From: Trichlorobacter thiogenes
GTDB lineage: Bacteria; Desulfobacterota; Desulfuromonadia; Geobacterales; Pseudopelobacteraceae
Direction: 5' to 3'
Length of the DNA: 64,000 nucleotides
NCBI RefSeq assembly: GCF_900167465.1
Contig: NZ_FUWR01000001.1
Span: 489,269-553,268 of the forward strand
Of this stretch, positions 4,037 to 17,023 are shown piece after piece. Below the pieces are notes generated by a model, which saw only the letters and a list, made by a program, of their open reading frames with translations, was not told where the DNA came from and searched no databases. The position numbers and the translations under genes were made by a program. The first letter of the stretch is position 1; the number at the start of each line of letters is the position of its first letter.

Positions 4037-4137
4037 GTGATAGAAAGGCGTGGAGCATAGAAACATCTGCATAGACAACCCCAAAACTCTGTCGTATAGG
4101 ATAGCTGACCCCATCAATCCCCCGCAAGGAAACGGCC

Positions 4138-4926
4138 ATGAATCGTCTGATCCTGCTTTGTCTGTCCCTGGTGCTACTCCTTGTGGCCAGCCCGGCCTTC
4201 TGCGACGATGCCGCGCTTGCCAGGCTGTTCAGTGATCGCAAAGTCAACGGCACCCTCCTGATCGCCAATCTGGACGGTACCGCCCTGTACCTGCATGACG
4301 CGGCCCGCGCCAGCACGCCGCTGCTGCCCGCCTCTACCTTCAAGTTTCCCAACACCTTGATCGCCCTTGATGAAGGGGTAATAACTGAAAAGGAACTGCT
4401 GAAATGGGATGGCACAGAAAGGGGGCTTGCAGCCTGCAATCGGGATCAGACCCTGGCCAGTGCCTTCAAAAACTCCTGCGTCTGGTGTTATCAGCAACTG
4501 GCGCAACGGGTCGGCACCGCTCGCTATCAGCACTGGCTGAAGCAGATCGACTACGGCAATGCCAACCCCGGCCCGGAACTGACCACCTTCTGGCTGTCCG
4601 GTGATCTGCGGATCAGCGCACAACAGCAGATTACGTTTTTGCAAAAACTCTACAAACATGAACTGCCGTTTAAGCCTGCATCCTATGATGCATTACGCAG
4701 AATCATGCTGGTGGAGGAAAAGCCCGGCTACCGCCTCTACGCCAAGACCGGCTGGGCAGGTTACGGAGAAAAAGCCACACCGCAAATCGGCTGGTACGTG
4801 GGCTATGTTGAAACCGGAACGGATGTCTGGTTTTTTGCCCTGAACATGGCTATAACCAAACCAGCAGATGGCGCCTTTCGTCAGCAGATGGTGATGGAGG
4901 CGTTGAAGCTGAAGGGAATTCTGTAA
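4138..4926 (+). CDS. Class D beta-lactamase (OXA-type serine hydrolase)
   Basis: 262 residues with a Sec signal peptide (about 22 residues, ending SPAFC). All class D motifs are in place: STFK at 66-69 (nucleophile Ser66, Lys69 to be carboxylated), SCV at 113-115, YGN at 139-141, and KTG at 203-205 followed by W. A periplasmic enzyme expected to open beta-lactam rings; spectrum cannot be predicted. The ATG has AAGGAAA eight bases before it. A SnoaL-like gene follows by 17 bases. Environmental Geobacter chromosomes do carry OXA-like enzymes, and nothing nearby suggests a recent mobile element. Confidence 0.9.
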   Translation: MNRLILLCLSLVLLLVASPAFCDDAALARLFSDRKVNGTLLIANLDGTALYLHDAARASTPLLPASTFKFPNTLIALDEGVITEKELLKWDGTERGLAACNRDQTLASAFKNSCVWCYQQLAQRVGTARYQHWLKQIDYGNANPGPELTTFWLSGDLRISAQQQITFLQKLYKHELPFKPASYDALRRIMLVEEKPGYRLYAKTGWAGYGEKATPQIGWYVGYVETGTDVWFFALNMAITKPADGAFRQQMVMEALKLKGIL

Positions 4927-4943
4927 CACCACGGAGGGCAGCA

Positions 4944-5303
4944 ATGATTGATCAGGCCTTTGCACACAGCTTTGCCAATGAATGGATCGAAGCCTGGAAC
5001 AACCATGATCTGGAGCAGGTACTTGTCCACTATGCCGATGATTTTGAGATGCACTCGCCGGTGATCGCCCAGATTGTGGGGGAACCATCCGGCATGCTGC
5101 AGGGCAAGCAGGCTGTAGGTGCCTACTGGAGTCAGGCCTTGCAACTGCTGCCTGATCTGCAGTTTGAGCTGATCACAGTACTTGCCGGGGTCAACAGCAT
5201 TACCCTTTACTATCGCGGCGCACTGGACAGGCTGGCTGCCGAGGTGTTTCTTTTCGGGCCGGATGGCAAGGTAATTAAGGCCTTTGCCCATTACGGGGTG
5301 TAG
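4944..5303 (+). CDS. SnoaL-like / NTF2-fold polyketide cyclase-like protein
   Basis: 119 residues with the NTF2-like pattern: an N-terminal helix with EWIEAWNNHDLEQVLVHYADDFEMHSP, then strands ending in DGKVIKAFAHYGV. The family includes small-molecule isomerases and many proteins of unknown role; no substrate can be assigned. RBS GGAGGG precedes the ATG. It lies 17 bases after the beta-lactamase on the same strand and may be co-transcribed with it. Confidence 0.8.
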   Translation: MIDQAFAHSFANEWIEAWNNHDLEQVLVHYADDFEMHSPVIAQIVGEPSGMLQGKQAVGAYWSQALQLLPDLQFELITVLAGVNSITLYYRGALDRLAAEVFLFGPDGKVIKAFAHYGV

Positions 5304-15141: not shown

Positions 15142-15526
15142 GCAGTACGTTTTTTTCGAATGCGGTAGCCGCAGACAGACCGGGTAGCTGCGGCTACCGC
15201 ATTTCTCACAAGCGGTCTCAATATGAAACCAGATCTCAGCATGAGACCATATCCTGGCTGAACCAACAGCCTGTTCTGATTGCCAGCTACCCATAACAAC
15301 CAACCAGGCTCTCTCACCACCCTTCCCATTTTGTCAAGTTCAACCGTTAGTTTTGATTATTCCTGCGACTAAACAGGCATCTGCATTGCATACAGATGCC
15401 TGCAGGAGCTCTAAGATGTGGCTTTAATACTGCTGTAGTATAGCCATGGCCTGATTTCAGAGGTCACAGGTGACAATAATTGTGGTCAAATTAACGGCCT
15501 GAGTGGACCAACAAAAGGAGTACATT
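15142..15526. other. Structured non-coding interval before the selenoprotein gene
   Basis: No gene. It holds three inverted repeats: 16-base perfect arms at 15159-15174 and 15188-15203; GGTCTCA / TGAGACC at 15214-15220 and 15242-15248; and CAGGCATCTG / CAGATGCCTG at 15374-15383 and 15393-15402. A small ATACT-gctgt-AGTAT palindrome lies near 15434. The first hairpin follows the Old Yellow Enzyme gene but is preceded, not followed, by its T-run, so it is a poor terminator for that gene. Confidence 0.6.
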
Positions 15527-16099
15527 ATGGAAAAGATTGCCTGGATTGAATCATTTGAGGAGGGGCTCCAAAGGGCCCGGTCAGAAAACAAACTGATCTT
15601 TGCCGATTTCTTCAACCCCAACTGAATTGGCTGCAAACAGATGGACGCGGTCGCGTACATCGATGCCGAGGTGATTGGCTTCATAAACAACACCCTGATT
15701 CCCCTGCGGCTGGCAGCGGCCGATCCTGTGCTGGGGCCGCGCTACCGGGTCAAGTGGACCCCAACCCTGCTGATCCTCGACGCAGAAGGGGTGGAACAGT
15801 ATCGCACACTTGGTTTCTATCCGCCGCAGGAGCTGATCTCCTCGCTGCTGCTCGGCATCGGCAAGGCCCGCTTCAACCAGCCTGACCGTCCGGCAGCCGG
15901 TGACTGTTTCAGCGATATCATCAGCCGCTACCCGGCAAGCCCCCAGGCCCCGGAGGCGGTCTACCTGCACGGCGTCTCACGCTATATCGAAACTCATGAT
16001 GTCACCAACCTGATCGCCATCTACGACCAGCTGGCAGCCGGCTACCCTGACAGCATCTGGCTGACCAGGGCCGATCCCTACCGCCTGCTGAAGGCGTAA
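15527..16099 (+). CDS. Thioredoxin-like selenoprotein (UxxC), in-frame TGA read as selenocysteine
   Basis: 190 residues if the TGA at 15623-15625 (codon 33) is read as selenocysteine. The ATG at 15527 has AGGAG seven bases before it. Around the TGA the protein reads FADFFNPN-U-IGCKQMDA: the thioredoxin CxxC site with Sec replacing the first Cys, and GCKQM continuing the family pattern. After it come strand KWTPTLLILDAEG with the cis-Pro (TP) and a C-terminal TPR-like part. A candidate SECIS hairpin starts 14 bases after the TGA. Both halves are in the same frame with no other stop. Without Sec readthrough it would be a 32-residue fragment. Role: thiol/selenol redox enzyme of unknown substrate. 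Pirin follows after 21 bases. Confidence 0.85.
15640..15661 (+). promoter_or_regulatory. Candidate bacterial SECIS element
   Basis: GATG-g-ACGC-GGTC-GCGT-a-CATC: two four-base-pair helices separated by a G/A mismatch, closed by the loop GGTC (15649-15652). The loop starts 23 bases after the TGA, inside the range for bacterial SECIS elements, and equals the GGUC loop of Escherichia coli fdhF. It lies inside coding sequence, as bacterial SECIS elements do. Confidence 0.6.
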
Positions 16100-16120: not shown

Positions 16121-17023
16121 ATGCCGCCACGTTCCATCAGCAAGGTGTTTAAAAGTATTCCAACCATTGAGGGGGCCGGTGTCCACCTCAAGCGGGCCTT
16201 TGGTTACCATCAACTGCCACTGTTTGATCCGTTTCTGATGCTGGATGATTTTCATACCGCTAACCCGGACGAGTATCTGGCCGGCTTTCCCTGGCACCCC
16301 CACCGGGGGATCGAGACCATCACCTACATCCTTGAGGGGCGGGTGGAACATGGCGACAGCATGGGCAACAGCGGGGTGATCGGGGCGGGCGACGTGCAGT
16401 GGATGACCGCCGGTAGCGGCATCATCCATCAGGAGATGCCGAAGCTGAGTCCCAGCGGCACCATGTGGGGCTTTCAGTTCTGGGCCAACCTGCCGGCCAG
16501 CCAAAAGATGATTGCACCCCGTTACCGTGATGTCCCGGCTGCCATCATCCCCGAAGTAACCCTGGAGAACGGGGTCACCATCAAGGTAATTGCAGGAAAG
16601 GTGGCTGGTGTGCAGGGACCGGTACAGGATATCCTGGCCGACCCGGAACTACTGGATGTACGCCTGCCTCCGGGTGCCGTCTTTGAACATGCCGTAACCG
16701 ATGGCTACACCGTGGTGGCCTACCTGCTGCACGGTCAGGGCTACTTTGATCAGGGTCGCGATCCCTATGCCTACGACTATGCCGGTACAGGCTGGCTGGA
16801 TCTGGAGCGGGACTGCTCCTTTGGTCCCGAGACAACCATCCTGTATGAGCACCAGGGGGAGGGCATTCGGGTGACTGCCGGCGATCAGGGGGTGCGCTTT
16901 CTGCTGCTGGTCGGCAAGCCGCTGGGTGAGCCGATTGCCTGGCAGGGGCCGATTGTGATGAACAGCCGCGAAGAGCTGCGTATCGCCTTTGAAGAGTACC
17001 ATAACGGCACCTTTGTGAAGTAG
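16121..17023 (+). CDS. Pirin family bicupin protein
   Basis: 300 residues. The N-terminal cupin has the pirin signature with metal ligands in GFPWHPHRGIETITYILEG, HGDSMGN and MTAGSGIIHQEMP, then a second degenerate cupin (LPPGAVFEHAVTDGYTVVAYLLHGQGYF). Cytosolic Fe-binding protein; family members are quercetinase-like dioxygenases or redox sensors, and no partner here defines the role. It starts 21 bases after the selenoprotein, so the two are probably co-transcribed. Confidence 0.92.
   Translation: MPPRSISKVFKSIPTIEGAGVHLKRAFGYHQLPLFDPFLMLDDFHTANPDEYLAGFPWHPHRGIETITYILEGRVEHGDSMGNSGVIGAGDVQWMTAGSGIIHQEMPKLSPSGTMWGFQFWANLPASQKMIAPRYRDVPAAIIPEVTLENGVTIKVIAGKVAGVQGPVQDILADPELLDVRLPPGAVFEHAVTDGYTVVAYLLHGQGYFDQGRDPYAYDYAGTGWLDLERDCSFGPETTILYEHQGEGIRVTAGDQGVRFLLLVGKPLGEPIAWQGPIVMNSREELRIAFEEYHNGTFVK

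Follow-up and report, generated by a model that had tools for sequence, protein, structure and literature searches.

Several described proteins lie close to the gene that we report here. Zhang et al. (2006) listed a 'thiol:disulfide interchange protein' with Sec for Geobacter metallireducens, G. uraniireducens and Syntrophus aciditrophicus (PMC1794560), and the selenoprotein catalogues of 2022 and 2026 list the thiol:disulfide interchange selenoprotein as a PF13098 protein with a UxxC motif, under WP_011366075.1 (PMC9312934, PMC13188914). The gene at 15527..16099 on the forward strand of our window (the whole 64,000-nt stretch of Trichlorobacter thiogenes DNA that was analysed) shares the PF13098 domain and the UxxC motif with this catalogued family, and differs in being a new member from another genus. 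In the single-contig Geotalea genome G082, which shares its coded genus with Geotalea sp. SG265, just one PF13098 match contains an in-frame TGA, namely the homologue of the gene at 15527..16099, and family identity with the PF13098 selenoproteins is therefore very likely. Judged from its domain, motif, the listed species and G082, the gene most likely belongs to the catalogued PF13098 UxxC family, and it is most likely new as a gene and old as a kind, the kind having been catalogued about twenty years ago. We consider it improbable that the proteins with a DsbD-gamma-like domain and a TPR-like tail, which occur in Thermodesulfobacteriota, Nitrospirota and anammox Brocadia and nearly always in the Sec form, make up a family of their own, separate from the catalogued selenoprotein and missed by the published lists. 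A sequence-level identification of this particular gene was not found in the deep-Sep, GOS and stop-codon papers. NCBIfam 20.0 is without a specific model for the protein, and automatic annotation is therefore likely to place the start of the gene past the TGA. The preliminary description had held that the gene is hidden from automatic callers; this probably stands for gene callers, but the literature does have a PF13098 UxxC selenoprotein (PMC1794560, PMC13188914).

The gene opens with an ATG at 15527 and closes with a TAA at 16097-16099, and a single frame runs throughout with one internal TGA, at codon 33. The sequence directly 5' of the ATG is AAAAGGAGTACATT, in which the likely ribosome-binding site, AGGAG, can be read at 15516..15520 (forward strand), 6 nt before the start. 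With TGA translated as U, the product is 190 aa long and begins MEKIAWIESFEEGLQRARSENKLIFADFFNPN-U-IGCKQMDAVAYID. The TGA (15623..15625, forward strand) is the first codon of the UxxC motif in NPN-U-IGC-KQM, that is U33-I-G-C36, and comparison of codons among homologues identifies it as Sec-encoding. Both the placement of the TGA at the first redox residue of a CxxC site and the continuity of the two gene halves in one frame, as described previously, are thus borne out by the translation, and the former by the homologues as well. The longest frame without Sec decoding is the 152-aa open frame that starts at an ATG past the redox site (15641..16099, forward strand), and this is the expected product of a Sec-blind caller.

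Homologues with cysteine at the site had been suggested as a check, and we find them. We searched 97 genomes, comprising the window's own and those of relatives, and found full-length matches in 30; a further scan, with each species represented by a single genome, yielded 80 named loci. These overlapping sets, in which some genes occur twice, together hold 109 homologous gene records, and codon 33 is TGA in 93 of them and a Cys codon in 16 (TGC in 10, TGT in 6), so that every classified record carries one or the other. The Cys homologues read across the site without a stop, and one further homologue (L095) has CIAC, with its cysteine in the same place. Removal of identical sequences leaves 84 Sec genes and 14 Cys genes; the motif is UIGC in 82 of the Sec genes and ULGC in the remaining two. 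The homologues align along the whole length of the protein, and the TGA-bearing records come from several phyla and a large number of genera; outside this codon their genes are intact and conserved. Among the named organisms with the Sec form are Geotalea, Geobacter argillaceus, Geomobilimonas luticola, Desulforhabdus, Syntrophaceae, Nitrospirota and Candidatus Brocadia. An even sample of the phylum contains a relative at E <= 1e-25 in 60 of its 297 genomes, and a large majority of these matches have one TGA. Distribution within the genus is patchy: no match to the gene was found in several same-genus genomes that are near-complete (G002, G003, G008 and G013).

The second line of evidence is the RNA that follows the codon. 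Published limits for bacterial SECIS elements are an apical loop of 3-9 nt with a G within the first two places, a stem of 4-16 bp, a UGA-loop distance of 16-37 nt and an energy of at most -7.5 kcal/mol (PMC13188914). The hairpin GAUGGACGC-GGUC-GCGUACAUC (15640..15661, forward strand) lies within them, with a 4-nt loop 23 nt from the UGA and a constrained folding energy of -11.7 kcal/mol. It begins with G15640, 14 nt past the TGA as had been reported, and contains one G.A mismatch. The GGTC loop is present at 15649-15652; it is not typical of the family, however, occurring in 19 of 76 distinct Sec sequences (columns 27-30), while the commonest loop is AGTTAC and the invariant element is the G of column 28. 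The resemblance to the fdhF loop, which had been stressed previously, is better seen as a detail of the lineage than as a defining feature. Local folding of 53 nt gives -14 kcal/mol, which for this single 53-nt sequence is not significantly different from shuffles (z -0.33); because single-sequence energy does not separate from shuffles we do not use it as evidence, and the significance of the hairpin comes from comparison across homologues.

A complete six-pair stem in either of two registers is present in 71 of the 76 distinct Sec sequences and in none of the 13 distinct Cys sequences. When codons are redrawn at random from family usage with the protein unchanged, a complete stem appears in 7.5% on average and 18% at most (200 draws), and the mean hairpin energy is -3.4 +/- 0.25 kcal/mol compared with the observed -8.9; these figures are descriptive, and since the sequences are related, there are fewer independent observations than the comparison suggests. 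The majority hairpin among homologues is GGAUGC-NGUNNC-GUAUCC, and the clade of the 15527-16099 gene has GGACGC-GGUC-GCGUACC, or its own variant given above, in a shifted register. Because of this shift, with its mismatch or bulge, the gene scores five of the six pairs of the model stem, and it is among the five incomplete Sec cases together with three relatives that have the same G.A mismatch, which is bridged in the fold by a longer stem. The two arms covary, in part across the protein code: the paired codons are GAT/TAT in 54 sequences, GAC/TAC in 9, GAA/TTT in 3 and GGA/TTC in 1. Columns 23/36 change from A-U to G-C (GAT/TAT to GGT/TAC and GGA/TTC), columns 24/35 from U-A to A-U (GAT/TAT to GAA/TTT), and columns 22/37 from G-C to A-U. 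Wherever the 3' arm encodes threonine the codon is ACG, without synonymous variation; at other places in the gene Thr codons vary. The earlier suggestion of a SECIS-like loop therefore holds, both by the published limits and by conservation with compensatory changes. In six Brocadia (anammox) loci (L089, L073, L077, L084, L085, L111) the Sec form likewise comes with a SECIS-like hairpin, for example GGATACAGTTTCGTATCC.

The machinery for Sec insertion, the presence of which had been proposed as a check, is encoded in full. Family models detect tRNA-Sec (selC; 76.2 bits, cut-off 47), SelB (361.9 bits for both pieces together, cut-off 242), SelA (609.5 bits) and SelD (351.3 bits, its own gene containing an in-frame TGA) in the genome, and SelB exceeds the cut-off in all ten further gene-holding genomes tested, two Brocadia among them. 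Genome G000 has another selD-like gene at C37:64619-65453 (L049, L050), again with an in-frame TGA; its halves are in different frames, and it is perhaps a decayed or frameshifted duplicate.

Because some ninety bacterial relatives of the gene and a hairpin conserved in the RNA point the same way, we read codon 33 as selenocysteine, and judged by this comparison 15527-16099 is almost certainly a genuine selenoprotein gene. An ordinary gene starting at the ATG at 15641, with the TGA-bearing part upstream left untranslated and a protein devoid of the redox site, would account for the 152-aa frame being open from that ATG, but is very improbable: the 32 codons that precede the TGA can be aligned as protein with homologues, the Cys homologues continue across the site, and a ribosome-binding site precedes 15527. 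Compared with the nearest, same-genus relative, dN/dS is 0.07 upstream of the TGA, a value based on only those 32 codons and exceeded in one pair (L056, 0.53), and 0.22 downstream of it, which indicates purifying selection on both sides. Still less credible is a pseudogene or sequencing error in which a Cys codon has turned into TGA. A single base does separate TGA from TGC or TGT, but an accident of this kind is contradicted by the conserved TGA and hairpin, the same TGA being shared by 93 of 109 records from several phyla in genes that are otherwise intact, and by the Cys genes forming one nested clade. We thus reject pseudogene, downstream start and chance TGA alike on conservation, and conclude that the preliminary reading of a thioredoxin-like selenoprotein was right in all essentials, given the TGA or Cys codon in homologues and the conserved hairpin.

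The protein matches Pfam Thioredoxin_2 (PF13098) at 35.7 bits (curated cut-off 27, E 1.2e-8). In profile searches of solved structures its first ~100 residues match the putative disulphide isomerase 2kuc (4.9e-16) and DsbD-gamma (1uc7/2fwe, E about 1e-11), and profile positions 108-180 match the TPR domain of CpoB/YbgF (6.4e-11). An AlphaFold model (mean pLDDT 95.8, pTM 0.90) shows a thioredoxin fold followed by five helices, and its best solved relatives by Foldseek are DsbD-gamma and related disulfide oxidoreductases. The family has an invariant W77-T78-P79 (the cis-proline loop) in addition to the redox pair U33/C36, as in a DsbD-gamma-like thioredoxin. As modelled, then, the protein combines a DsbD-gamma-like thioredoxin domain with a TPR-like helical C-terminal tail. 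It shares the thioredoxin fold and the C-x-x-C-K arrangement with the gamma domain of DsbD, but has Sec for the first Cys, a TPR-like tail and no membrane part. The C-terminal DsbD-like part of the rhodanese/DsbD fusion-like selenoprotein TsoB (NF045694) resembles residues 4-106 at 31.7 bits, a score far below the cut-off of 805, and TsoB differs in architecture and in having two Sec residues.

What the selenoprotein does is a separate question, and one alternative concerns function only and is compatible with Sec insertion: it could act as a holdase or chaperedoxin like E. coli YbbN (CnoX), with the TPR-like tail as its main working part. The two have the same order of domains, thioredoxin then TPR, and Foldseek ranks the YbbN structures 3qou and 3qdn among its best whole-length matches, but the whole-length superposition is poor (TM-scores 0.42 and 0.29, rmsd above 10 A at 11.6). 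The active sites also differ; YbbN is not known to have a CxxC, whereas here the UxxC site is strictly conserved and so points to redox catalysis. We therefore think a YbbN-like role unlikely and favor a redox enzyme. We saw no hydrophobic N-terminal segment in the protein, which suggests a cytoplasmic location, and the product is probably a cytoplasmic selenothiol:disulfide oxidoreductase. SelB carrying Sec-tRNA(Sec) would bind the hairpin 15-36 nt 3' of the UGA and so allow the ribosome to decode codon 33 as selenocysteine. The U33 selenolate would then attack a substrate disulfide and C36 would resolve the mixed selenosulfide; the TPR-like tail may bind a partner or client.

A common neighbor that might be such a partner was sought across the homologue loci, with neighboring genes named by eye, and none was found. 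A pirin-like gene (16121-17023) begins 21 nt past the selenoprotein gene, in the same order as in L010 of the same genus, and Brocadia L089 likewise has a pirin-like frame downstream (about 4098-5108). In several Geobacteraceae a gene for a cardiolipin-synthase-like membrane protein follows the selenoprotein gene, and the remaining genomes have other genes.

The distribution of Sec and Cys forms likely also records an exchange of one for the other. A tree built with the Sec/Cys residue masked (LG model, quick search, rooted at the midpoint) places the Cys genes in a single group (99% SH-aLRT) nested among Geobacteraceae Sec forms, which argues for one change of state, and all the named Cys genes are from Geomonas, a genus that retains SelB. 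The Geomonas silvestris gene (L097) has ATGGATGCGGTCAGCTTTCC at the place of ATGGATGCGGTCACGTATCC in Sec relatives, and the DNA of its Cys codon and the next 40 nt is close to the SECIS of those relatives, so that it looks as if Sec had been lost to Cys fairly recently. As Geomonas keeps SelB and the silvestris gene keeps SECIS-like DNA, these sequences most likely record a change from Sec to Cys, with the SECIS now in decay.

Overall, reading the TGA as Sec restores an N-terminus and an active site that Sec-blind callers would cut off, in this genome as in many related ones. The family makes a textbook case of a coding-region SECIS whose bases constrain the amino acids that they encode, with Asp/Glu and Tyr/Phe covarying across the stem, and the Geomonas lineage has apparently gone from Sec to Cys while retaining SelB.
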